From assembly GCA_016191205.1 (NCBI GenBank), contig JACPPB010000017.1, forward strand, positions 1 to 64,000: a stretch of 64,000 bases of DNA, in the 5' to 3' direction. Positions 2,187 to 44,889 of the stretch are shown piece after piece (position 1 is the stretch's first letter; every line of letters begins with the position of its first letter). The notes beneath the pieces were generated by a model. That model was not told the DNA's origin. It was given only the letters and a program-made list of their open reading frames with translations, and did no database searches. This DNA is from Gammaproteobacteria bacterium. Lineage in GTDB: Bacteria; Pseudomonadota; Gammaproteobacteria; Pseudomonadales; Porticoccaceae. The position numbers and the translations under genes are program-made.

Positions 2187-3524
2187 TCAGGAGACCCGCA
2201 AACCCAGTTGCGCCATGCCGGCGCGGTCGCACACCGGTGCCCGCCGGGAACCGGGAGCCAGTGGCACGGACCCCGGCGTGCGTTCGAAGGAGTCGAACAG
2301 CCCGATGCTGTTGGAGTACTCGCGCAGCTCCGGGATGACATGCTTGCCGATCAGTTCGATGGAGCGGTTGCGCTGCTGGTCGGACGCCACGCCCTGCACA
2401 TTGAAGAACGTGAAGGAACCCGGACGGATCACGCTCAGGATTGCCTTGATCTTCGGAATCACCTGCTCCGGGGTTCCCACCACGATTTGCAGGTTTTCCT
2501 GCGCGCGCTGGTAGGAATTCCAGAGTTTTTCCTTGATCACGTCGAAATCCTGTTCCTCCTGCCACTTCCCGCTGCGCGCCGCCGCCAGCTTGTCCTTGCT
2601 GACGCCGAGCCAGGAACCGCCCGGCGCCTTGGCCAGAATGCGGGTCGCGGTCTTGGAGTTGTAGCCCGGCGGCAAGGTGTGCTCGGGACGGCTGAAGCCG
2701 TTCTGGCCGCCGCCGAAGGCGTAGCCGCGCCCGATCTGCTGAGCTTCCGCTTCGTTGTCGGAGACGAACACCGGCAACAGATAGCCGAAGTTCTCCGGGC
2801 CGGCCTGGTAGCCCAGCTCGGCGGCGGTGTCGGCGTAGAGATCCCAGAGATCGCAGGTGGGGCCGAGCGCTGAACCCAGTCCGATGTAGGGGTAGCGTTT
2901 CTGGGCACACCAGATCACGGTCTCGGGCGAGAGCACGCCGGGAATCCACTGCTGGGGATAGGGCTCCTGCAGCGGCAGCGCCCAGGGGTTCACATGACGG
3001 TAGTGGAAATGCTTGCCCTCGTAGCGCCAGGGGCCGGGCCGGGTCCAGGCCTGGATGATGAAGTCGTGGGCTTCATTGAACATCTCGCGGTTGTAGGAGG
3101 GGTTGGCGTTGTTGAAGAACTGTTCGGAGCCGGCGCCGCGCACCCAGCCCGCCACCAGACGGCCGCGGGAGATGAGGTCGATCTCCGCCAGTTCCTCGGC
3201 CATCCGCAACGGGTGCTTGATCACCGGCAGCGGGTTGCCCACCAGAATGATCTTGGCCTTGCGGGTGGCGCGCGCCAATACGGCGGCCTCGGTATTGATC
3301 ACGTTGCCCATGCAGTAGGGGTTGCCGTGATGCTCGTTCAGCGCCAGCCCGTCGAAGCCGACTTCCTCGGCAAAACAGTATTCGTCGATGAACTGGTTGT
3401 AGTCGTCCGCCGCCTTCTTGCGATCGAAATAGCGGTTGGAAACGCCGAAGAACGCCTTGTTGGCGAGCACGACGTTTTCGTCGATGTGGCGATAGGGACG
3501 CTCGGTGAAATAGCCGAATTTCAT
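2187..3524 (-). CDS. Luciferase-like monooxygenase (alkanal-monooxygenase type, 445 aa)
   Basis: A long member of the bacterial luciferase-like flavin monooxygenase superfamily. Motifs include FAEEVGFDGLALNEHHGNPY near residues 51-70 (the EHH flavin/substrate motif), HPLRMAEELAEIDLISRGRLVAGWVRG near residues 105-131, and a C-terminal VGTPEQVIPKIKAI segment near residue 360. About 40 residues past the usual end are proline- and arginine-rich and probably form a tail. The adjacent upstream minus-strand gene (103 bp away) encodes an ACMSD-type amidohydrolase; in degradation clusters this pairing suggests oxidative attack followed by hydrolysis or decarboxylation, which is inference. A terminator follows the gene. 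Confidence 0.88.
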   Translation of the reverse strand: MKFGYFTERPYRHIDENVVLANKAFFGVSNRYFDRKKAADDYNQFIDEYCFAEEVGFDGLALNEHHGNPYCMGNVINTEAAVLARATRKAKIILVGNPLPVIKHPLRMAEELAEIDLISRGRLVAGWVRGAGSEQFFNNANPSYNREMFNEAHDFIIQAWTRPGPWRYEGKHFHYRHVNPWALPLQEPYPQQWIPGVLSPETVIWCAQKRYPYIGLGSALGPTCDLWDLYADTAAELGYQAGPENFGYLLPVFVSDNEAEAQQIGRGYAFGGGQNGFSRPEHTLPPGYNSKTATRILAKAPGGSWLGVSKDKLAAARSGKWQEEQDFDVIKEKLWNSYQRAQENLQIVVGTPEQVIPKIKAILSVIRPGSFTFFNVQGVASDQQRNRSIELIGKHVIPELREYSNSIGLFDSFERTPGSVPLAPGSRRAPVCDRAGMAQLGLRVS

Positions 3525-3627
3525 GGTGGGAAATCTCCTCTGGACAATCGGTATGCAGTCAGCTCGCGCGGGGAAACCGCCCCGGCGTCACGCACGGACG
3601 CCGGGGCAGTTCCATCGGTACCGCGCC

Positions 3628-4761
3628 TCAGTGGCGGGCCGGGACCGGGATCGGCAGATTGAACAGTTCGATGCAGTTGAGCCCCATGGCCTGTTCGCGC
3701 ACTTCCTCGGACACGCCCGCGGTGTGGTTGGCGAGCATCTCCTGCGACCAGGGCCAGGTGGAATCGCTGTGGGGGAAGTCGTTGGCCCACAGCAGACGCT
3801 TGGAGTTCATGCGGTGCGCGCAGGCAAAGGCTTCCCAGTCGTCCTGGAAGGTCAGCCAGACGTTTTCCCGGATGTACTCGCTCGGCGGGCGCGGCAACAC
3901 GGGACCGTGCTTGCCGTGGCCGTGCCGGTAGGCGGCGCGATTGATGCGGTGCATGTAGTGGGGCAGCCAGCCGGCGTCGCCCTCGGCGCCGACGAACTTG
4001 AGCTCGGGGTGGCGCTCGAACACGCCGCCCAGGACGAACAGGCCGACCATATCCTGGATGCCGCGGATGAGTTTCAGGAAGCTGTTGAGTTTGTGGCCGC
4101 GATACTCGGTCAACGCCGCCGCACTCTCCCGCGAGGTGAGGATGTGGAAACACAGCGGCAGGTCGAGGTCGGTCGCGCACTCCCAGAGGGCGTCGTACAT
4201 GGGGTGGTCGTAGTCCTCCTCGACCGGCCGGCCGGGCATCATCACACCCACGAAACCCGCCGCCTTGATGCGGCGAAAATCCTCGATGGCGGAGTCCACC
4301 GACAGCACAGCGGTCTGGCCCAACCCGAACAGGTTTTTCGGCGCCGCGCTGCAATAGCCTTCGAGCCAGCGGTTGTAGGCCTTGAAGCAGGCATCCTTGT
4401 AGAGCGCATCCTTGAGGTTGCACAGCACCATGCCGACCGAGGCGTAGATGACTTCGCCATCGACGCCGTCGCGCTTCTGGTCCTCGACGCGGTTGGTCGG
4501 ATCCCAGCCGCTCTGGTGCATGTCATAAAACTTGCGGTGCGGCCCCAGCTTGGGCATGACTTCGTCGGGAATGCCGGCGGCGGACATCAGGCCGATCTCG
4601 AGGGGCCGCTTGTAGCCCTCGATGGCGTAGGCGTCGCCGCCTTTCCCGTCATCGACCAGATAGGGCGCGCGATCGCGGTATTTGGGGTCGATGAAATCCC
4701 GGTAACACTCGGGCGGCTCGACGATATGGGAATCGGCGGAAACTACAGGTGCGCGCAGCAT
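3628..4761 (-). CDS. Amidohydrolase family 2 (ACMSD-like) metal-dependent hydrolase
   Basis: A 377-residue amidohydrolase-2 (PF04909) TIM barrel. The N-terminal strand carries ADSHIVEP (D10, H12), the form of the HxH metal motif typical of the ACMSD-like branch. Further metal/active-site elements are LCFHILTSRE near residue 203 and LLWANDFPHSDSTWP near residue 338, which supplies the conserved aspartate. Enzymes of this branch decarboxylate or hydrolyse aromatic and ring-cleavage products. Many are annotated only as 'amidohydrolase' beside luciferase-like monooxygenases, as here. The true substrate is unknown. Confidence 0.88.
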   Translation of the reverse strand: MLRAPVVSADSHIVEPPECYRDFIDPKYRDRAPYLVDDGKGGDAYAIEGYKRPLEIGLMSAAGIPDEVMPKLGPHRKFYDMHQSGWDPTNRVEDQKRDGVDGEVIYASVGMVLCNLKDALYKDACFKAYNRWLEGYCSAAPKNLFGLGQTAVLSVDSAIEDFRRIKAAGFVGVMMPGRPVEEDYDHPMYDALWECATDLDLPLCFHILTSRESAAALTEYRGHKLNSFLKLIRGIQDMVGLFVLGGVFERHPELKFVGAEGDAGWLPHYMHRINRAAYRHGHGKHGPVLPRPPSEYIRENVWLTFQDDWEAFACAHRMNSKRLLWANDFPHSDSTWPWSQEMLANHTAGVSEEVREQAMGLNCIELFNLPIPVPARH

Positions 4762-21200: not shown

Positions 21201-21489
21201 AGTGTCCGGGGCTATAAAAGACTCTGAAGTTGATCGCGGCTGATCTTCACATCGCAAAGTATTCGGGCAAGCAGTGCTGAACTCGGACGGCGCGACGAAG
21301 GAAGTGAGGTGAGCCGCTGGTGCGACACGTGCAGTCGCGGTAAAAGACTGACCCCATGCCGACAATATATGATTGCAATACCCCTATTTTTCCTGCGCCA
21401 TGTAGGCGGAATGTTACAATGAAAGACCTGACCCCCTTTCCTGCTTGACCCCCTTTCCTGCTAGCGACGCCGTCCAGTGGAAGCGGTTG
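21201..21489. other. Non-coding stretch with GACCTGACCCC-like motifs between MFS gene and DUF4145-like gene
   Basis: I see no gene here. The stretch includes a TAAAAGACTGACCCC motif near 21340 and a related GAAAGACCTGACCCCC motif near 21421 leading into the tandem repeat. Similar short motifs recur beyond the island gene near 22420. They look like remnants of a mobile or repeat element that marks one edge of the AT-rich island. Confidence 0.4.
21429..21462. repeat. Two tandem copies of a 17-bp unit TGACCCCCTTTCCTGCT
   Basis: Two exact head-to-tail copies of the 17-bp unit lie just outside the 3' end of the DUF4145-like gene. No spacer or further copies follow, so this is not a CRISPR array. 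Confidence 0.9.
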
Positions 21490-22170
21490 TTATGTGGCGG
21501 TATCCATATCGGCTAGGTACTGCGCCGTTAAGACATGATTTCTTATCCATGCCATGGTTAGCTCCAAAAGAATCTTCAGATCCTTTATCTCTTTATCTTC
21601 CCACTTACGAACGTAGTGAGATTCGTCATTGCCCAACCATGCCGCCCTCTTGGCGCATTCCTTAACGTTCGTATCATCAACGAATTCGTTGATGCAAGCA
21701 CCAAGGAATTTGGCCTTTATTTCTTGTTCTTTGTCGGGATTCTTGGAGATGCAATAGTCTTTAACCAAAAACTCCAAAGATTTTCGGTATCCAACACCAG
21801 CGATCTGGTTCAGTCCGTAATGCTCCGCTGTGTGTGCCTGGGAATAGATTTCAACGAAGTTAGCAGAGAGTTTTTTGACTTCTTCGGGTATTACTGGCTC
21901 TTTGCCGCGATATGGTGATGTATTTCTCAGAGAAAAATTCTTTTCCAGTGTTCCGCGAAAATCATGCCCCTGCCAGTACGTGGCAATAAATGCATGTTGG
22001 CAATCTTGTCGAGGACAACGAAAAATGAATTGAAGAATGTTGCCCCTGTGACCTTCTCTTTCGATGGCATTTGTGCCGATCAGCCGTGGATCGATGCCGT
22101 GATGACATAGGGGGCAGGTATCCGGAATGGAACTGTAAGGGTAGCGAATATTGTTAATGTCTATATGCAT
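21490..22170 (-). CDS. DUF4145-like protein with zinc-ribbon N terminus, in an AT-rich island
   Basis: A 226-residue protein with two cysteine pairs (CPLCHHG near residue 18 and CPRQDC near residue 52) that would form a zinc knuckle, followed by a helical region typical of DUF4145: AEHYGLNQIAGVGYRKSLEFLVKDYC, INEFVDDTNVKECAKRAAWLGNDESHYVRKW. DUF4145 domains are common in restriction-modification and other defence-linked proteins and in stand-alone proteins of unknown function. The gene is clearly richer in A and T than its neighbours, uses codons they avoid, and is flanked by short repeats, so it was probably acquired horizontally. No partner gene is visible. Confidence 0.75.
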   Translation of the reverse strand: MHIDINNIRYPYSSIPDTCPLCHHGIDPRLIGTNAIEREGHRGNILQFIFRCPRQDCQHAFIATYWQGHDFRGTLEKNFSLRNTSPYRGKEPVIPEEVKKLSANFVEIYSQAHTAEHYGLNQIAGVGYRKSLEFLVKDYCISKNPDKEQEIKAKFLGACINEFVDDTNVKECAKRAAWLGNDESHYVRKWEDKEIKDLKILLELTMAWIRNHVLTAQYLADMDTAT

Positions 22171-22678
22171 TCAGAGCCCCCTACCTGTGTGAGCCAGATA
22201 ACGTAAAGTTGAGGGGCGCGCCGCTTTTGGAGAGGCACAGGGGTCTGTTCTCGCATTGTTGCATTTAATCAAAGAACGTACTCTGTAGCGGTGCTTGCGG
22301 TCGCGGTAGCCATCCTTGCGGGCGCTTTTGGCGATGCCGGCCAGTTCCTCCAATTCGGGGGTCAATGGGGTAAGACTCGATTGATCTATAACCCCATTGA
22401 CCCATCTTGACCCACCCACTGACCCCAGATTTACACGCACGTGCTCAACCGGCGCGGGCTGGCAGTGCGAAGTACGCTGGAGCAGATCTGAACGGGAGGC
22501 GGCTGACATTGCCATTGAGAATGACGTTCCCTGTTGCGTGGCCCGACTGTAGCGGCTGGCGACACGGGAGGCAAATGCCGCGCGGCGGATCAGAAAAGCA
22601 GCGGGATCAGGGGCCACCGTAGCGAGCCTGCCATTCCGCCCTGCCGCCGACCATCCGTGGCCGGGCTCGCTTCCAGGA
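22171..22678. other. 508-bp gap, probable degenerate mobile-element remnant with 13-bp inverted repeat
   Basis: No convincing gene. A minus-strand frame near 22180-22360 reads a basic fragment (KSARKDGYRDRKHRYR) that looks like the end of a longer, lost protein, but I cannot name it. Within the gap, GGGTCAATGGGGT at 22359-22371 is exactly inverted at 22391-22403 around a 19-nt loop, and further GACCC-type motifs follow. This is the upstream edge of the AT-richer island. Confidence 0.5.
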
Positions 22679-35818: not shown

Positions 35819-36643
35819 ATGAACGAACTCCAGGGCAAGGTGGCGTTGATCACCGGCGGTGCCAGCGGCATCGGCGAGGGCACGGTGCGGCATTTCGTCG
35901 CCGAGGGCGCGCGCGTCGTCATCGCCGACATGCAGCGGGAACGCGGCGAAAAACTCGCGGCCGAACTGGGCGCCGACACGCTGTTCGCGGCGGTGGATGT
36001 CACCCAGGAAGACCAGGTCAAGGCCGCGATTGCCAGTGCCGTGACGCGCTGGGGCCGGCTCGACTGCATTTTCAACAACGCCGGTTTCGGGGGCGCCATC
36101 GGGCCGCTGGAAGACACCCCGGTGGAAGACTACGACATCACCTTCGATGTGCTGCTGAAAGGCGTTTTTCTGGGCATGAAGCACGCGATCCCGGTCATGA
36201 AACGCCAGGGCGGCGGCAGCATCATCAACACCGCCAGCGTCGCCGGCCTGATCGCCGGCCATACCCCGCACCTGTACTCGGTCGCCAAGGCGGCGGTGAT
36301 CCATCTCACCAAATCCGTGGCGCTGGAAGTGGGCGAAAACAGTATCCGGGTGAACGCCATCTGCCCCGGCTTCATCGCCACTCCGCTCGCCACCAACACC
36401 GTGGGCCGCGACGAGAAGATGGCCGATCTCGACTACAAGATCACCCAGCCCATTCCCCGCGTGGGCCAGCCCCAGGACATCGCCGCCATGGCCGGCTGGC
36501 TCGCCGGCGATCAATCGACCTTCGTCACCGGCCAGGCGATCGCCGTGGACGGCGGCATCAGCGCCGGCCTGCGCTGGGCGAAGCAGCCCGCGTATCACAA
36601 GAGCTACCGGCCGATCAAAGTCTACCGCCCGCCGAGCCGCTAG
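35819..36643 (+). CDS. Short-chain dehydrogenase/reductase (SDR)
   Basis: A 274-residue classical SDR. Cofactor motif ITGGASGIGEGTV lies near residue 12, with D in VVIADMQ favouring NAD. NNAG lies near residue 87, and the catalytic Ser...YxxxK is SVAGLIAGHTPHLYSVAK. These enzymes oxidise alcohols or reduce ketones. It is divergent from the Baeyer-Villiger monooxygenase gene; together an alcohol to ketone to ester route can be drawn, by inference. AGAGGAAAAC lies just upstream of the ATG, at the end of a 15-bp tandem repeat. Confidence 0.9.
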   Translation: MNELQGKVALITGGASGIGEGTVRHFVAEGARVVIADMQRERGEKLAAELGADTLFAAVDVTQEDQVKAAIASAVTRWGRLDCIFNNAGFGGAIGPLEDTPVEDYDITFDVLLKGVFLGMKHAIPVMKRQGGGSIINTASVAGLIAGHTPHLYSVAKAAVIHLTKSVALEVGENSIRVNAICPGFIATPLATNTVGRDEKMADLDYKITQPIPRVGQPQDIAAMAGWLAGDQSTFVTGQAIAVDGGISAGLRWAKQPAYHKSYRPIKVYRPPSR

Positions 36644-36756
36644 CGGTCGGCAGGGGATGCCAGCCCGCCAGACACCATCCGGCGGGCTGGAGCAAGTCTT
36701 TACCTTTCGGGCCGCCTCACTTAGGGTAACCGTCCGCCACTCACGACCGGCACCCA

Positions 36757-37268
<512 letters not shown>

Positions 37269-37296
<28 letters not shown>

Positions 37297-38150
37297 GATC
37301 GCACAGGGCTGCCAGCAAAAAACGCATCCAGCCGCCGCGCCACTTCCGGTGCGGGTTCTTCCATGTGGAAATGATGGCCGCCGCGCACTTCGGCGATTTC
37401 CATGTCCCGCGCGTGAGCCTCCATGCCGTAGAAACGCTCCACACGTCCAATGTCCGACAACAACAACAGGAGTTGACATTCGATGCGCTCGACGAAGCTG
37501 CGTACCAGTTCCGGCGTCAGCTTGATCTCGGAATCGAGCTTGAGTTTTTCATCGCTGCGCCAGCGATAGCCGCCCTCGACCTGTTCCATACCGCGCGCCA
37601 CGATGTCGGGAGCGGATAGCGCCGACAGCGGCGAGAGCCCCCGCAACCGGGTCGCTGTCAGCGCCTCGATGTCCGGGTACAGACGCGGCATCTGAGCGCG
37701 GCGTGCCGCGCGGTCGAGGATGGCGCCGCGCAACTGTTCGGGCTCGTCGGCGGTCGCCACCGTCGCCGGGACGAAGCTGTCGAGCAGCCCGAGATGACTG
37801 ATCCGCTCGGGAAACGTCCCGGCGGTCAGGGTGCAGATCATGGCGCCGCGCGAATGGCCGAGCAGCGCGAAGCGCTCCCAGCCCAGTTGCTCGGCGACTC
37901 CATGTATCACGCCCACGTCCTGCCAGATGTTGTAGGTGCCGTCCGCGGAGCGGTGGCTGCTGTGGCCGTGGCCGGGCAGGTCGAGCGCGATCAGGCGCAC
38001 CTGCCGCAGCAAGCGGCCCAGCGGTGCGAAGCTGCCGCAGTTGTCGAGCCAGCCGTGCAGGGCCAGCACCGGGGTGCCGGCGGGATCGCCCCATTCGGTG
38101 GCGGCGATGCGCAGGCCATCGTAGGAAAATGCGTGTTCGACAGGTCTCAT
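37269..38150 (-). CDS. Alpha/beta-fold hydrolase
   Basis: A 293-residue hydrolase. Oxyanion region [13 protein letters not shown] lies near residue 33, nucleophile motif LLGHSRGAM near residue 100, and the C-terminal histidine in [13 protein letters not shown] cap-domain insertion follows the nucleophile. It resembles epoxide hydrolase/haloperoxidase-like alpha/beta-hydrolases; substrate unknown. The frame extends upstream across sixA, but the ATG at 38150 gives the family start. It overlaps the 3' end of folE by 28 bp and lies 43 bp downstream of sixA. Confidence 0.87.
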
Positions 38151-38193
38151 GAGAGGAGCTCGTACCGCGGAAAATTTGGCGTCCGGCGCTGGC

Positions 38194-38655
38194 TCAGCCG
38201 GGCGGACGTTCGAGCCAGAGCAGACGCGCCCCGCCGCGCGCGCAGGCGGTGATGTCCAGCGCCGCCAGACAGGCGGTGTCCATGGAGCCAACGTCCTCGC
38301 TGTCGGTGAGATAACGCAGCAACTCGCCCACCAGCGGCTGGTGGCTGACCAGCAGCAGCGCCTCGCTGCCGAGCGCATCGATCAGTGCCGCGACCTGCCC
38401 GGCATCGCCCGCCGGGGTGAGTGCGGCCTCGACCAGGAGCTCACCGGAGAAATTCAGCGTGCGCATCAGTTCCGCCGCCGTCTGCCGCGCGCGCTGATAG
38501 GGGCTGGTGACGACACGCTGCAACCCGGCGAGCCGTTGCGCACAAGCCTGTGTTACCGCCCGCACCTCGGCCTCGCCCCGGGGCGTCAGCCGGCGCGCCG
38601 CATCCGAGGGCGCAAGGGGTTCGGCCTCGCCATGGCGCAATACATAAAGCTTCAT
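38194..38655 (-). CDS. sixA: Phosphohistidine phosphatase SixA
   Basis: A 153-residue histidine phosphatase. The catalytic RHG motif is at MKLYVLRHGEAEP (R7, H8, G9), with R in SPYQRARQTA and the second histidine in LLVSHQPLVGEL. SixA removes phosphate from phosphohistidine, for example on ArcB or PtsO-type carriers. Its ATG is 22 bp from the end of a 141-bp MITE that separates it from gpsA, so the element may have altered its expression. Confidence 0.9.
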   Translation of the reverse strand: MKLYVLRHGEAEPLAPSDAARRLTPRGEAEVRAVTQACAQRLAGLQRVVTSPYQRARQTAAELMRTLNFSGELLVEAALTPAGDAGQVAALIDALGSEALLLVSHQPLVGELLRYLTDSEDVGSMDTACLAALDITACARGGARLLWLERPPG

Positions 38656-38677
38656 GACGTCGCCTCGTGCGAGTTAG

Positions 38678-38818
38678 CAGGTTGCTGAAAAACTGCTGCG
38701 GGCACCGCCTGCTTCGTTGCGCGGTGCCCGCTCCCTCGCCTATCTACTTGATATGTCTCGGTCGCTGCGCTCCGTGCGCCTCGCATCTGGCCCCCTCGCG
38801 ACGTTTTTCAGCAACCTG
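38678..38818 (+). mobile_element. 141-bp MITE copy 1 with 16-bp terminal inverted repeats and TTAG target duplication
   Basis: The element starts CAGGTTGCTGAAAAAC and ends with its perfect reverse complement. It is flanked by TTAG on both sides (38674-38677 and 38819-38822). It has no coding capacity. A second copy, inverted, lies at 40901. A 4-bp target of form YTAR fits the IS5 group of transposases from family knowledge. It lies between gpsA and sixA. Confidence 0.92.
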
Positions 38819-38825
38819 TTAGGGT

Positions 38826-39842
38826 TCAGCCGACCCGGAATTCGACGTCGTCGCTGCGCTCCGACACCGCCATTCCGGCCAGTACCCGCGAAATCGACCG
38901 GCCCTCGAACAGCACGGCGTGCAGCGCGCTCGCCAGCGGCATGTAGATGCCCAGCTCGTCCGCCTTGCGCTTGACGATGCGGGTGGTGTTGATGCCCTCC
39001 GCCACCTGACCGATCGCCGCTACCGCCGCCTCCAGCGAATCGCCCGCCGCCAGCGCCCGACCGATGCGGAAATTGCGGCTGAGCGGTGACGTGCAGGTGA
39101 CGAACAGATCGCCGACGCCGCCGAGCCCCAGAAATGTCATGGGATTGGCGCCGAGGGTCGCGGCAAAGCGCGTCATTTCCGCCAGGCTGCGCGTCAGCAG
39201 CACCGCCATGGTGTTCTGCCCGAGGCCCATCTGGGTCGCCATGCCGGCTTCGATCGCATAGATGTTCTTGAGCGCGCCCGCCAGCTCGACGCCGAACACA
39301 TCCGGGTTCGCATAGACCCGAAAATAGGGCGTGACCAGCAGCGCCTGCACCAGCGCGCAGACTTCCGGATCGGCGCTCGCGATCACCGTCGCCGTGATGG
39401 CATGGCGCGCCACCTCCCGCGCCAGATTGGGCCCGCTGATGACGCCGATGCGGGCGCCGGGAAGTTCCTCGGCGAGCACTTCGCTCATCCGCAGGAAGCC
39501 TTCCGGCGCGAAGCCCTTGGCGGTGCTGATGACCACGGTCCCCGCCGCAATGTGCGGCGCGGCCAGCCGCGCCACGGCGCGAAAGGCGGTGCTCGGCACC
39601 GAAAAGAACACCAGCCGGGCACCGGCCAGCGCCGCGGCAAGATCGGCGGTAATGGACAGATTGGGATCGAGCGGGTAGTCGGGCAGATAACGGGGGTTGC
39701 TCCGCGACGCCTGACACTGGGCGGCGTAGGCGGCGTCGCGCATCCACAGCACCGCCTCGTGACCGTTGCCGGCGACCATGTTGGCGATGGCGGTGCCGAA
39801 GCTGCCACCGCCGAGCACGGCGATCCTTACCGCTGCAGCCAT
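38826..39842 (-). CDS. gpsA: Glycerol-3-phosphate dehydrogenase [NAD(P)+]
   Basis: Reduces dihydroxyacetone phosphate for phospholipid synthesis. NAD motif VLGGGSFGTAIANMV lies near residue 9; conserved blocks VFFSVPSTAFR, STAKGF, ISGPNLAREVA, GVELAGALKNIYAIEAGM (catalytic lysine) and GLGGVGDLFVTCTSPLSRN follow, and RVLAGMAV closes. At 338 residues it is normal. Its stop codon is 7 bp from MITE copy 1. In many Gammaproteobacteria gpsA lies next to secB, which is absent here. Confidence 0.95.
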   Translation of the reverse strand: MAAAVRIAVLGGGSFGTAIANMVAGNGHEAVLWMRDAAYAAQCQASRSNPRYLPDYPLDPNLSITADLAAALAGARLVFFSVPSTAFRAVARLAAPHIAAGTVVISTAKGFAPEGFLRMSEVLAEELPGARIGVISGPNLAREVARHAITATVIASADPEVCALVQALLVTPYFRVYANPDVFGVELAGALKNIYAIEAGMATQMGLGQNTMAVLLTRSLAEMTRFAATLGANPMTFLGLGGVGDLFVTCTSPLSRNFRIGRALAAGDSLEAAVAAIGQVAEGINTTRIVKRKADELGIYMPLASALHAVLFEGRSISRVLAGMAVSERSDDVEFRVG

Positions 39843-40051
39843 GCTGATTCACTACGAAGGACAGACGCCATTATCGGGTGCGCCAAAAACGCATTGCAAC
39901 CGCCGCCCCGCCCGCCGCGCCACTGGTTGGCTGGCGCTACGACCGGACGGTGAACCAATCCGCACCGGCGGCATCGAACCACGCGACCACGCGGCCGGAT
40001 TCTGAAGTAATCTGGCGCGCACAAAACCGCTGTTTGAACAGGAAATCCGCA

Positions 40052-40900
40052 ATGCCCGCTCGGCACCGAACATATGTTATCTCAACCATCGTCGGCCTGG
40101 TTTTCGCCCTCGCGTTTACCCAGATGGCCGATGCCAGAAGTCTCAGCGGGGGGCGCTCCATGGGACGTCAGTCCAGCACCTACAGCCAGCGGCAGGCGGC
40201 GCCCACGGCAACGCCGCCGCCGCGCAATCGCTGGCTCGGCCCCCTCGCGGGCCTCGCCACCGGGTTGGGGATCGGCGCACTGATGTCGCATTTCGGCATG
40301 GGAGGCGGTTTGGGGGGCGGCATGGGCGGCCTGTTGCTGATGGCCGGCTTGGTGATGGGCGGGATCTTTTTGTACCGGCGGTTTTTCGCCACACCGCCGA
40401 CGGGAAGCTACAACGGTTCGCCCACGCCCTGGCGGGACAATAGCCCTCCCGTCACAGCGTCGGCCGCGCCCCAGGACGCGGTCGCCGCGCAACCGGAAAC
40501 GAACTGGGCGATTCCCACCGAATTTGACACCGCAGGATTCCTGCACCTGGCCAAGGTCAACTTCATCCGCTTGCAGGCGGCCTGGGATCAGGCAGACCTC
40601 GACGACATCCGCGAATTCACCACGCCGGAGATGTTTGCGGAAATCAAACTGGAACTCAATGACCGCGGCACGGCAACCAATCACACCGATGTGGTCAGTT
40701 GCACCGCCGAACTGCTCGGCATCGAAACGCTCGCCAACGGCTCGCAACTGGCGAGCGTGCACTTCTCCGGCATGATGCGCGAGGACGTCGGCGGCCCGGC
40801 CAATGCTTTCAAGGAGGCATGGAATTTCCTCCGCCTTGATGGCCATCAACCCGCCTGGCTGGTGGCCGGGATTCAGCAGGACTTCGTGCCGGTGCACTAA
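40052..40900 (+). CDS. Tim44-like domain membrane/exported protein
   Basis: A 282-residue protein with a signal-like N-terminal hydrophobic segment (YVISTIVGLVFALAFTQMADA). It then has a polar Ser/Gln/Pro-rich stretch, a glycine-rich membrane segment (residues ~75-110) and a C-terminal Tim44-like domain of ~130 residues (GFLHLAKVNFIRLQAAWDQADLDDIREFTTPEMFAEI). Bacterial members of this family are of unknown function. AGGAAA precedes the ATG. Its stop codon TAA is part of the 4-bp CTAA target duplication of MITE copy 2, so the element landed exactly at the end of the gene without changing the protein. Confidence 0.85.
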   Translation: MPARHRTYVISTIVGLVFALAFTQMADARSLSGGRSMGRQSSTYSQRQAAPTATPPPRNRWLGPLAGLATGLGIGALMSHFGMGGGLGGGMGGLLLMAGLVMGGIFLYRRFFATPPTGSYNGSPTPWRDNSPPVTASAAPQDAVAAQPETNWAIPTEFDTAGFLHLAKVNFIRLQAAWDQADLDDIREFTTPEMFAEIKLELNDRGTATNHTDVVSCTAELLGIETLANGSQLASVHFSGMMREDVGGPANAFKEAWNFLRLDGHQPAWLVAGIQQDFVPVH

Positions 40901-41041
40901 CAGGCTGCGGAAAAACGTCGCGAGGGGGCCAGATGCGCGGCGCCCGGCGCGCAGCGACCGAGACATATCAAGTCGATAGTTGAGGGAGCGAGCACCGCGC
41001 AACGAAGCAGATGGTGCCCGCAGCAGTTTTTCAGCAACCTG
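40901..41041 (-). mobile_element. 141-bp MITE copy 2 (inverted) with CTAA target duplication
   Basis: It is the reverse complement of copy 1 at 38678, with about 11 mismatches over 141 bp by hand alignment. It is flanked by CTAA at 40897-40900 and 41042-41045. One terminal repeat carries two changes relative to the other. Same length and same kind of target as copy 1 show two separate insertions of one family. Confidence 0.92.
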
Positions 41042-41210
41042 CTAACCGCGCGAAATTACTGCCGGTAGATCTGCCGGCGGCCGATCAATACCGTGGAAGT
41101 ACCGCTCGCCCGTGCCTCGCGCCCCATCTCGCCCGTCGCCTGCGGGTCGCGTATGCTCGCGCCAGCAGCGCACGCCATCCCGGCCGGAGCGCTCCGCGGG
41201 AGGACAATAA

Positions 41211-42644
41211 ATGGCCCAACAACTTCACCTCAAAAGCATCACCGCGCCCCAGACCGAAGCCGAGCGCGTTCTCAAGCTCCAGAAGGACGCCTGTCGCGCC
41301 CAGCCCTACCCGTCGCTCGCGGTACGACTCGACCTGCTGACCCGGCTGGAGCAGTTGCTCGCCACCCATGCCGACGCCATCGCGGCGGCGATCGCCACCG
41401 ACTTCGGCCACCGCAATCCGACCGAAACCAAACTGGTGGAAATCTTCGGCTCGCTGAGCGCGATCCGGGAGACTCGCAAGCACCTCAAACGCTGGATGCG
41501 GCCGCAGAAGCGCAAAACCTCGGTACTGTTCCTCACCGGCCGCAATCGGGTGATCCCGCAGCCCAAAGGCGTGGTGGGCATCGCCACACCCTGGAATTAC
41601 CCGCTTTATCTCTCGGTCGGCCCGATCATCAACGCGCTCGCGGCCGGCAACCGCTGCATGGTCAAACTCGCCGCCAATTCACAGAACCTCTGCCGCCTGA
41701 TGCAGCAACTCTGCCGCGATGCTTTCGGCGACGACACCCTGGCCTATCTGCCGGACGTGAGCGGCAGCGAGTTTTCCAATCTGCCGTTCGATCACATCGT
41801 CTACACCGGCTCCGCCGAGAGCGGCCGCAACGTGATGCGCGCGGCGGCGGAAAACCTGTGTCCCGTGACCCTGGAGCTGGGCGGCAAATCGCCCACCGTG
41901 ATCTGCGACGACTTCGATCTGCGGGAAGCCGCGAGCCGCCTGCTGTACGGCAAGTTCGTCAACGCCGGCCAGACCTGCGTGGCGCCGGACTACCTGTTTG
42001 TGCCGCGCGCCAAGGTGGAGAGTTTCGTCACCGTCGCCGGCGAGATCATGCGCCAGCGCTACCCGGACATTCACAATTCCGACTACACCTCCATCATCGA
42101 CCGGCGCTCCTATGTGCGGCTGCGGGAGACGCTGGACGACGCCGTGGCCAAGGGCGCCCGCGCCGTCAGTCTCGTGGACGGCGATTACCACGACGCGCTG
42201 CGCAAGATTCCGCCGCACCTGGTGCTCGACGTGAATCCGGCAATGCGCATCGTTCAGGAGGAAATCTTCGGCCAGCTGCTGACCGTGATGCCCTACGACA
42301 GCCTCGACGAAGTGCTCGATTACATCAACGCCGGCGAGCGGCCGTTGGCACTCTATCTGTTCAGCAACGACCGGGCCGTGCAGGAGCGCGTGCTGTACCA
42401 GACCCTGTCCGGCGGCGTGACCATCAACCACTGCATCTTCCATGTGCTCCAGCACGGCATTCCCTTCGGCGGCGTGGGCGCCAGCGGCATGGGTCACTAC
42501 CACGGCCACGACGGCTTTCTGGAAATGAGCAAGCTGCGCCCGGTGTTCACTTTCCCGAAGGTGGGCAGGCCGGAGCTGTTCTACCCACCCTACGGCAAAT
42601 CCCACGACCTGCTCTACCGGGTGCTCAACCGGCTGGGCTTGTAG
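41211..42644 (+). CDS. Coniferyl-aldehyde-dehydrogenase-type aldehyde dehydrogenase
   Basis: A 477-residue NAD(P)-dependent aldehyde dehydrogenase. GIATPWNYPLYLSVGPIINALAAGN near residues 123-147 and TGSAESGRNVM form the cofactor site. E222 in LELGGKSP and C256 in NAGQTCVAPDY are catalytic. The C-terminal region (GGVTINHCIFHVLQHGIPFGGVGASGMGHYHG) resembles fatty- and coniferyl-aldehyde dehydrogenases (CalB type) without the membrane tail. CGGGAGGAC precedes the ATG. The 3' end overlaps the convergent dinB by 20 bp. Confidence 0.9.
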   Translation: MAQQLHLKSITAPQTEAERVLKLQKDACRAQPYPSLAVRLDLLTRLEQLLATHADAIAAAIATDFGHRNPTETKLVEIFGSLSAIRETRKHLKRWMRPQKRKTSVLFLTGRNRVIPQPKGVVGIATPWNYPLYLSVGPIINALAAGNRCMVKLAANSQNLCRLMQQLCRDAFGDDTLAYLPDVSGSEFSNLPFDHIVYTGSAESGRNVMRAAAENLCPVTLELGGKSPTVICDDFDLREAASRLLYGKFVNAGQTCVAPDYLFVPRAKVESFVTVAGEIMRQRYPDIHNSDYTSIIDRRSYVRLRETLDDAVAKGARAVSLVDGDYHDALRKIPPHLVLDVNPAMRIVQEEIFGQLLTVMPYDSLDEVLDYINAGERPLALYLFSNDRAVQERVLYQTLSGGVTINHCIFHVLQHGIPFGGVGASGMGHYHGHDGFLEMSKLRPVFTFPKVGRPELFYPPYGKSHDLLYRVLNRLGL

Positions 42645-43734
42645 CCGAAGGCTCCGTACCGGCGGCAAACAGATCACCCTGCTGCGGTTCGGAACCCGCG
42701 CGGTCACCGAGCCGCACGCCCAGGCCCAGCAGGCGCACAGGCCGCGTGCGGCGCATCCATCCTTCTTCACACAAACGCCGGTAGCCCGCCAGCGCCGTGC
42801 CCTCGGGCAGGGCGCGCTCGATGGTGGTGGCGGTGAAATCATCGAAACGCAGTTTCAGAAAATGGCGTTCGATGCGGTAACTGGTATCGAGCCGCGCCAG
42901 ACGCCGTTCCAGTTCGCCGTGGAGTTCGGCCAGCGCATCGAGACAGGCCGCCAGCCCCGGCAGATCCTGCGCAAACGTGGTCTCGACGCTGAGGGATTTG
43001 GAGCGCCGATCCGCCAGCACCGGACGCTGGTCGATGCCGCGACAGAGTTCGTACAGGCGCTGCCCCAGGGCACCGAAATGTTCGGCGAGCAAGGGTCGCG
43101 ACAGGACGCGCAGATCGTCGCAGGTTTCGATCCCGAGTCCGGCCAGCTTTTTGGCGGTGGCGGCGCCGACGCCGAACAGCCGCGCCACCGGCAGCGCGCG
43201 CACGAAGGCATCGACCCGCTCCGGGGTGATCACGAACAGGCCGTCCGGCTTGCGCCATTCGCTGGCGATCTTGGCGAGAAACTTGTTGGGCGCGACGCCC
43301 GCCGACACCGTGATGCGCACTTCGCCGCGCACCCGCGCACGGATTTCCCGGGCGATGCGGATCGCGCTGCCGCCGGCGGCACTCACACCGGTGACATCGA
43401 GGAAGGCCTCGTCCAGCGACAGCGGCTCGACGTGCGGCGTGTAGTCGAGAAAGATGTCGCGGATCTGTTCCGCCGCCTGGCGATAGCGGGTGAAATCCGG
43501 CGGCAGCACCACCAGTCCGGGACAGCGGCGCAGCGCCTGCGCCATGGACATCGCCGAGCGGATGCCGAAGGCGCGCGCCTCGTAATTGCAGGTCGCGACC
43601 ACGCCGCGCCGCTCGGGCGGCCCGCCCACCGCCAGCGGCCGGCCGGCGAGGCCGGGATCGTCGCGGGTCTCGACGGCGGCATAGAAGCAGTCGCAATCGC
43701 AGTGAATGATCTTGCGCGGTTCGGGCAATTCCAT
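42625..43734 (-). CDS. dinB: DNA polymerase IV
   Basis: A Y-family translesion polymerase of 369 residues. The catalytic motif IIHCDCDCFYAAVE (D13) has cysteine at two positions where HVDMDCF is common. The second carboxylates are in PLSLDEAFLDVTG. ISAGVAP-like VSAGVAPNKFLAKIASEWRKPDGLFVI, the helix-hairpin-helix GVGAATAKKLAGLGI and a C-terminal little-finger domain complete it. No beta-clamp motif is certain at the C terminus. The frame continues upstream of the ATG but without similarity. Confidence 0.95.
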   Translation of the reverse strand: MELPEPRKIIHCDCDCFYAAVETRDDPGLAGRPLAVGGPPERRGVVATCNYEARAFGIRSAMSMAQALRRCPGLVVLPPDFTRYRQAAEQIRDIFLDYTPHVEPLSLDEAFLDVTGVSAAGGSAIRIAREIRARVRGEVRITVSAGVAPNKFLAKIASEWRKPDGLFVITPERVDAFVRALPVARLFGVGAATAKKLAGLGIETCDDLRVLSRPLLAEHFGALGQRLYELCRGIDQRPVLADRRSKSLSVETTFAQDLPGLAACLDALAELHGELERRLARLDTSYRIERHFLKLRFDDFTATTIERALPEGTALAGYRRLCEEGWMRRTRPVRLLGLGVRLGDRAGSEPQQGDLFAAGTEPSATSPAG

Positions 43735-43869
43735 GCCGTCATTATCGCGGGCGGGAGCCCGCCAACAACAAGGGCGGCGCGCCACGGGTGCGACAATTTG
43801 CCGCATCGACAGGAGTCGTCCGCGCCGGTAGTTTGCGGGCCGCCAATCGCCATCCCGCAGGAGTCCGCC

Positions 43870-44889
43870 ATGCCCAACCTTGTACGCCACAGCGCAGGCG
43901 CCATCGCACTGCTCGCGAGTCTCGGTCTGACCGCCGCCGCCTCCGCCGATCACGCTTCCGTCGGTCTGGGTGGCAGCGCCGGCAGTCCGATCTACACCGA
44001 GTCCGCCATCACGCTGCCGACGGGCCGCTGGAGTGTCAGTCTGCGTTCGGAGTACAACAATTTTTCCCGGTTTTCCGACCACCGGCTGGCGGACACTGAA
44101 CTGCACAGCGTCGACATTCTGTCATCGACCGCGCTCGGACTGAGCTATGGTGTTACCGACGACCTGACCCTTGGACTGCGCCTGCCCTATATCCAACGCC
44201 AGAACGTCAGGGAAGCGGATCATCACGTCTACGATCACGGCGCCGGTGCCCACGGGCACGCAGACCGGATCCTGAATCTGGGCGACCCCGAAGGTCTCGG
44301 CGACGCCACCCTGTTCGGGGAATACCGTTTCCTGCGCAGCGCGGACCAGCAAACACACCTCGCCGCGCTGTTCGGGGTCAAGCTGCCCACGGGGGAGACC
44401 AACCGCAAGAGCGGCGGCGAACGTCTGGAGACTGAGTTCCAGCCCGGCTCGGGCTCCACCGACGGCCTGCTGGGAGTCGCGGCGACGCACCTGTCCGGCG
44501 CGCTGTCCTACGATGCCAGCCTGCTCTATTCCGCCGTCACCACCGGCGCCCAGCACACCGACCTGGGTGATGTCCTCAGCTACAATCTGGCGATGTCCTA
44601 CCGGCTCGGCGGCGAGCGCCCGGCCAATCCCTACGATCTGATGCAGTCGCACGCCTGGGATCTGATTCTGGAGCTCAATGGCGAGCACCGGGAGCGCGAG
44701 CAGATCCACGGCCAGCGCGACGAAAATTCCGGCGGCAATATCGTCTATCTGTCGCCCGGCGTGCGCTACCTGAACAAGACGGGCTGGGGCCTGGCGCTTT
44801 CCCTGGGCGTTCCGGTGGCGGAAAACCTCAACGGCACCCAGGCGGACCCGGACTATCGGGTGCTAAGCTCCCTGAATGTCGCGTTCTGA
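43870..44889 (+). CDS. Outer-membrane beta-barrel protein (Phenol_MetA_deg-like transporter)
   Basis: A 339-residue protein with a signal peptide (AGAIALLASLGLTAAASA) and alternating strands of an outer-membrane barrel: ALGLSYGVTDDLTLGLRLPYIQR, GDATLFGEYRF, HLAALFGVKLPTGETN and a C-terminal VLSSLNVAF ending in phenylalanine. A histidine-rich loop HHVYDHGAGAHGHADR lies near residue 120 and could bind metal. It resembles PF13557-type 'transporter' proteins of unknown substrate. CAGGAG precedes the ATG. The next gene starts 16 bp later on the same strand. Confidence 0.8.
   Translation: MPNLVRHSAGAIALLASLGLTAAASADHASVGLGGSAGSPIYTESAITLPTGRWSVSLRSEYNNFSRFSDHRLADTELHSVDILSSTALGLSYGVTDDLTLGLRLPYIQRQNVREADHHVYDHGAGAHGHADRILNLGDPEGLGDATLFGEYRFLRSADQQTHLAALFGVKLPTGETNRKSGGERLETEFQPGSGSTDGLLGVAATHLSGALSYDASLLYSAVTTGAQHTDLGDVLSYNLAMSYRLGGERPANPYDLMQSHAWDLILELNGEHREREQIHGQRDENSGGNIVYLSPGVRYLNKTGWGLALSLGVPVAENLNGTQADPDYRVLSSLNVAF

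Follow-up and report, generated by a model that had tools for sequence, protein, structure and literature searches.

In a 64,000-nucleotide stretch of the gammaproteobacterial assembly GCA_016191205.1 (the window), two similar, mutually inverted sequences bracket gpsA and a gene for a Tim44-like domain protein. This arrangement raises the question of whether the two sequences move as one unit with the genes between them or were inserted separately, and of what the centre of so short an element does.

Two copies of a repeated short element

An inverted-repeat search of positions 36000–44000 ranked the pair formed by copies A and B first, with arms at 38673–38822 and 40897–41046 (150 nt, 93% complementary, the target duplications being counted in). 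The copies are each 141 bp long and 92.2% identical; the termini of copy A form perfect 16-bp inverted repeats, and both copies are flanked by perfect 4-bp duplications (Table 1). The preliminary description of two inverted 141-bp elements, about 92% alike and bounded by TTAG and CTAA duplications, was thus confirmed; its span of 38674–41045 counts the duplications in. When up to two mismatches were allowed, GTTGCTGAAAAAC had 11 occurrences in the window, where 0.68 were expected. The exact matches, three in number, all fall at element ends; the remaining end, at 40904, differs at two positions.

Table 1. Features around copies A and B (window coordinates), and three probable scar loci elsewhere in the same genome (G000).
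Feature	Position	Strand	Remark
sixA, phosphohistidine phosphatase	38194..38655	-	context
Target duplication TTAG	38674..38677	.	left flank of copy A; identical to 38819-38822
MITE copy A, 141 bp	38678..38818	-	in the sixA-gpsA junction; both genes on the minus strand
Terminal inverted repeat CAGGTTGCTGAAAAAC, copy A left	38678..38693	+	
Terminal inverted repeat, copy A right	38803..38818	-	
Target duplication TTAG	38819..38822	.	right flank of copy A
gpsA, glycerol-3-phosphate dehydrogenase	38826..39842	-	context
Tim44-like domain protein	40052..40900	+	context; not found in three same-genus genomes
Target duplication CTAA	40897..40900	.	left flank of copy B; includes TAA stop of the Tim44-like gene
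MITE copy B, 141 bp	40901..41041	+	between the Tim44-like and aldehyde dehydrogenase genes
Target duplication CTAA	41042..41045	.	right flank of copy B
Aldehyde dehydrogenase	41211..42644	+	context
Scars L067, L068, L069 (probable)	G000 C8:208426, C49:488, C74:30229		

Both copies are short and non-coding, with terminal inverted repeats and target duplications, as is characteristic of a MITE. Two further MITE characters are many copies and an autonomous relative with the same ends, the latter found in other genomes. A BLAST search of the genome itself (2.52 Mb in 76 contigs, a 90.9% complete MAG) gave 40 matches ranging from full copies down to fragments, with at least two pairs being pieces of one place; the best other copy is 97% identical. 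The search for further copies of the terminal repeat that had been proposed was thereby answered, and a lack of other copies in the genome, which had been named as evidence against the assignment, was not what we observed. Both ends could be placed in 26 own-genome copies. Identical 4-bp flanks were present in 13 of these, 11 of the 13 following the YTAR rule of the IS5 group (PMC10359306), and in five more the flanks differ by a single base.

Among 58 genomes of the family and order (own included), the three same-genus genomes gave six, three and no element matches, and the 54 remaining genomes gave none. Since copies L001–L016 average 92.8% pairwise identity, the spread was not all recent. 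With copy A as the query, a plasmid search returned one matching record, from Nitrosomonas, and a phage search returned none; a search of E. coli with L003 and a plasmid search with L159 were also without a match. For the analyses of placement, 37 own-genome loci were aligned, and L027 and L028, which have neither end, were dropped to leave 35. Four copies in the same orientation throughout (L024, L002, L012 and L008) were observed within 13 kb at C6:59482–72391, and the two ends of L012 are of different variants, as recombination would leave them.

Separate insertion, joint movement and the source of transposase

The sixA-gpsA junction is without the element in all three same-genus genomes (G001–G003). 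The two frames overlap in G002, lie ~10 bases apart in G001 and are separated by ~110 bases of other sequence in G003, and an ancestral YTAR site is not visible at these junctions. Copy A was therefore inserted in its own lineage, between two same-strand genes. The preliminary description had suggested examining relatives for empty sites and had held that conserved structured RNA at orthologous sites, with no empty sites, would contradict a MITE. This was not the outcome, and the junctions without the element, together with the copy number, bear out the assignment. The site of copy B is without a counterpart for comparison, as the search for the Tim44-like gene in G001, G002 and G003 was negative; upstream of gpsA in G001 and G002 there is instead an endonuclease/phosphatase-like frame, as judged from translations.

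The inverted placement of the copies 2.1 kb apart, and the failure to find the Tim44-like gene in the three sister genomes, would fit a composite or invertible segment in which A and B carry or flip gpsA and the Tim44-like gene jointly. However, the outer flanks, TTAG (38674) and CTAA (41042), do not make the single direct repeat that is looked for beyond both outer ends of a composite transposon. Moreover, among the 28 copies aligned the nearest to A is L002 (97.2%) and the nearest to B is L003 (95.0%), so that A and B are not mutually closest, and the order and orientation of sixA and gpsA equal those in the sister genomes. The duplications are uninformative on inversion because TTAG read on the opposite strand is CTAA. 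We consider such a segment highly improbable, and the earlier suggestions of inversion of the gpsA-Tim44 segment and of joint transposition found no support. Copies A and B are, with a probability of about 0.85, independent insertions of a 141-bp non-autonomous IS5-type element (MITE). An IS5-type transposase with these ends would have moved them in trans; that transposase would now be lost or unassembled in the own genome and decayed in a sister genome.

Pfam DDE_Tnp_1, the one model used to test the window for a transposase, matched the genome twice, both times on contig C11, in agreement with the statement that the window holds no transposase. An IS5-family element of the own genome, L051 (C11 about 2600–3900; C11:3113), scored 336.6 bits with NF033581; it has CTAA on both sides, the same target as the MITE, and different ends, like GGAAGCGCTGATTTATT. 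Scanning the named genome contigs for exact YTAR followed by CAGGTTGCTGAAAAACG gave 82 stretches, and a slightly shorter YTAR-end pattern was found in one viral contig. Eight loci from other genomes (L098, L099, L119, L125, L148, L158, L174 and L175) have inverted ends 1.14–1.32 kb apart and identical YTAR flanks, the weaker end having 0–2 mismatches of 16. Their longest transposase-like stop-free stretches, alike by eye, run from 257 (L148) to 389 codons. The two that were tested, L119 and L175, scored 243 and 291 bits with NF033581 (IS5 family, cut-off 140), and their proteins carry DUF772 and DDE_Tnp_1; in both, the ends are held in common with an IS5-family transposase gene.

When the L119 protein was compared with 19 genomes, two matched (G001 and G010). 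The two partial matches in G001 belong to one decayed element, which has the end CAGCTTGTTGAAATAC, one base different from a MITE end variant, after TTAG and no matching duplication on the other side. In G010 the matches are close to contig ends and are preceded by YTAR and then CAGGCTGTTGAAAAACCCC. A transposase matching the L119 type was not found in the own assembly (91% complete). The assignment from the YTAR target to the IS5 group was upheld by these IS5-family elements elsewhere, with the same or near-same ends and YTAR duplications. The proposal that a parent elsewhere mobilizes the copies held in part: IS5-type elements with these ends exist in other genomes, but none was found in the own assembly, where the suggested check for an IS with the same ends was negative. 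Because no matching-end transposase was found in this incomplete assembly, present mobility of the MITE in the own genome is unproven. Twelve IS-element loci showed no MITE centre; a model including the ends gave four weak matches (best E 0.025), at the ends of L098 and L148. Two other candidate parents were rejected: the IS701 family, with weak matches in 3 of 19 genomes (own included, without a match) and none above the cut-off, and an IS1182-type element at C11:30834, which has GAGGCTGTAGAAAAACC ends without YTAR flanks.

Target sites and comparison with known elements

YTAR sites in the window number 30 as against about 206 expected from dinucleotide frequencies, a count that keeps the four duplications of A and B and omits element interiors. 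Only three of the 30 lie inside genes, as called by a crude home-made caller that miscalls folE. YTAR is thus rare and nearly always extragenic or within TAA/TAG stops in this GC-rich genome, which accounts for the intergenic placement of the copies. Since TAR is a stop codon and gets duplicated, insertion leaves the gene whole, as in the case of the Tim44-like gene. The YTAR count hence offers a simple reason for multiplication with little harm in a GC-rich genome. Of the 35 copies, two extend into a called gene: L015, by its decayed end, and the fragment L034.

A stop codon is abutted by 15 of the 35 own-genome copies versus 8 of 27 non-coding YTAR sites (p = 0.10; the background retains the four duplications of A and B), so that availability suffices and a special stop-codon preference was rejected. 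Enrichment at convergent gene pairs was likewise dismissed, as the copies (n = 27; 14 convergent, 9 tandem, 4 divergent) resemble the YTAR background of the window (12 convergent, 14 tandem, 1 divergent, besides the three inside genes), in which 9 of the 12 convergent sites form one cluster. One convergent intergenic region of 0.8 kb (21461–22265) was observed to hold nine of the 30 sites.

Among known systems, MITEPsy1 of Pseudomonas syringae is 100 nt long, bears terminal repeats of 18 nt and inserts behind CTAG or YTAA, which it duplicates; it probably derives from the IS5-family ISPsy2, and has a demonstrated transposition and a somewhat restricted distribution (PMC3189936). It is like the present MITE in being short, with terminal repeats, a YTAR-type duplication and an IS5-family origin, and unlike it in the sequence and size of the terminal repeats; the accessible portion of that paper describes no core between different ends. 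MITEAba12 of Acinetobacter (about 113 bp, attributed to the resident ISAba12, in 31 Moraxellaceae genomes) also has no orientation preference, whereas its duplications are 9 bp, and conservation is highest at its ends while its centre varies, the opposite of the pattern in the present MITE (PMC6382973). Chunjie of Geobacter uraniireducens is a multi-copy MITE of variable size (178–235 bp; review PMC10969869), larger than the present 141 bp and likened to it by description only; going by the title of the original report it sits in an operon without disturbing it, which is comparable to the position of copy A in the sixA-gpsA junction. Insertion sequences of the IS5 group that duplicate YTAR share the 4-bp target, but are autonomous, with a transposase gene and without the MITE core (PMC10359306). 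The literature searched, mostly without subscription papers, contained no description of this MITE family or its core, which may be described elsewhere.

The core, its differing ends and minimal forms

The finding at this locus is of an ordinary kind, an IS5-type MITE. The part worth following, and the new part, is a core that occurs across families, partly between different terminal repeats. The core of L003 (104 bases, ends excluded) matched 25 of 369 class genomes, own included, with at most two candidates scored per genome; the core-carrying genomes span 14 other families by their labels, the weakest genome (G411) being doubtful. From other genomes 28 core loci were taken and eight further matches were excluded. 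Of the 28, 19 entered alignment A3, and L216, L222, L224, L225, L228, L233, L234, L236 and L239 were left out for poor ends, a weak match, a large insert or near-duplication.

The ends around the core include CAGGCTGTTGAAAAAC with CTAA (G147), CAGGTTGCTGAAAAAC with CTAG (G351), GGAAACTCTGAATAAG with CTAA (G085) and GGACATCTCGAAAAAAC with CTAA (G325), as well as CAGGTTGC and GGAARCGCTGAT types; others occur without perfect duplications. Identical YTAR flanks were present at 7 of the 26 core loci examined for ends, the end-finding, which credited matching flanks and TA, being uncertain for several loci. CAG-type ends with identical YTAR flanks were seen in L214, L215, L236, L237 and L232, and clearly different ends with perfect YTAR duplications in two loci only, L227 and L229. 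The Nitrosomonas plasmid copy ends in GGAAACGCTGATTAATT, like the own-genome element L051, and is flanked by CTAA left and right, provided that one additional C is assigned to the element. At a limit of 5 mismatches in 16, the 24 ends of A3 fell into eight groups, of which about six would be fairer since L211, and L226 with L220, separate by register alone. The reverse case was also found, the same ends framing unrelated-looking centres. In 83 loci chosen by their ends, a core-only model, applied to look for a relation to Deltaproteobacterial elements, gave 14 matches (E 2.7e-4 to 0.078), 13 of them inside end-bounded elements from five MAGs and one, in L100, outside; this is no more than suggestive of such a relation. 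The exact apex pattern was absent from the viral contigs.

The centre of ~104 bp is an imperfect palindrome with covarying stems. Its core model, trained on close relatives of copy A, matched copy A at 38695–38800 on the minus strand (100.8 bits) and copy B at 40919–41024 on the plus strand (97.4 bits); these are the P strands, on which the core alignment is written. Across 27 core pairs in the 24 sequences of A3, 94.6% of cells were paired; shuffles gave 80.0%, and stems slid out of register 49% at most; 17 pairs and 84 cells had changed on both sides. The covariation score was 0.412 versus 0.155, and none of 500 shuffles reached any of five measures, tests which are inflated by relatedness and by a core structure derived from the same alignment. 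The end stems scored 0.740 versus 0.244, their number of doubly changed pairs being reached by 32 of 500 shuffles. The minimum-energy RNA fold was one long rod in copy B, L003 and seven of nine other copies, and branched in copy A, L227 and L220. Compared with shuffles, the DNA fold of copy A was exceptional (z -7.2) and that of copy B unremarkable (z -1.57, 15 of 200 shuffles as good). The P strand folded better in six of nine copies and the complement in three, which leaves the strand unsettled by energy. Mean column identity was 0.79 at the apex (columns 58–100) and 0.48–0.49 at the ends, a comparison that the core-based search biases toward the core. On one strand the apex, GAGACATATCA....GATAGGCGAGG, is almost invariant, and predicted folds place G.A opposite G.A at spaced positions. 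Rfam gave no match above the gathering threshold in the whole window, six at E up to 5 in 38600–41100, none at the elements, and one tRNA, away from the element, in 20 loci at E up to 0.1. WATCAA is half of an IHF site; an IHF site at the apex was rejected because this half is missing from some copies.

Bacterial MITEs are usually read as insertion sequences with the middle deleted and are defined by their ends. A conserved, covarying middle with differing ends would, if true, mean that the middle has a function. The centre may assist transposition structurally, folding or bending so as to bring the ends of a very short element together, while the ends track or swap among IS5-type elements. 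This is a possible reading that we hold tentatively, and a role in transposition is favored because movement by IS5-type transposases would be the context common to the copies. The centre may also be an independently inherited structured module that has persisted in about a dozen bacterial families by taking its frame from the ends of various IS5-type elements, and that is needed for movement or acts as RNA, a reading whose chances approach even without reaching it; the identity of a MITE lineage would then, with the same reserve, reside in the folded core, not in the ends. The case for this module is weakened by the occurrence of perfect YTAR duplications with clearly different ends in only two loci, and by a fold that favors one strand only slightly.

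That the core is a structured RNA carried by the element, or a signal for RNA processing or stability, of use to host or element, is rather unlikely. Covarying stems with near-invariant positions outside them, including G.A opposite G.A, on the P strand, the copies directly behind stop codons and the better folding of the P strand in most copies would suit it. Nevertheless, the complement folds better in the remaining third, the elements have no Rfam match, and orientation to genes is random (eight P-left and eight P-right at stops; five sense and four antisense at nine tandem sites). A cis-acting RNA shown by orientation was hence rejected; random orientation argues against a role at the level of the message and leaves DNA folding, protein binding or RNA in trans. 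Palindromes are prone to arm-to-arm template switching and can covary thereby. Covariation may accordingly have arisen without selection, the arms being copied and the fold a by-product, as would befit terminal repeats whose two copies alter together in the same element (CAGGTTGCTG to CAGCTTGTTG). Template switching would tend to erase mismatches, some of which are nonetheless conserved, and the apex hardly varies between families, in part through selection of matches via the core; we find this explanation as doubtful as the RNA one. The core family, if true, would be a testable case for the movement of elements whose length approximates the stiffness length of DNA.

At three places in the own genome (Table 1), YTNR is followed by 18 bases of one end and again by YTNR, with the same four bases on each side. 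These 18-bp remnants are probably deletion scars of the MITE, which would have formed by loss of the hairpin between the short CTGCT(G) repeats found at either end of it. When two mismatches were tolerated, the scar pattern had 27 own-genome matches, mostly the ends of full copies, and its reversed control had none; two further candidates are at C8:217937 and, in G002, at C143:4815. Separately, 34-bp elements made up of nothing but two back-to-back ends, separated by two bases, were observed in Candidatus Muproteobacteria RIFCSPHIGHO2_01_FULL_65_16 (L126, L153 and L155), L153 having CTAA on both sides; they may represent such an element in its shortest form.
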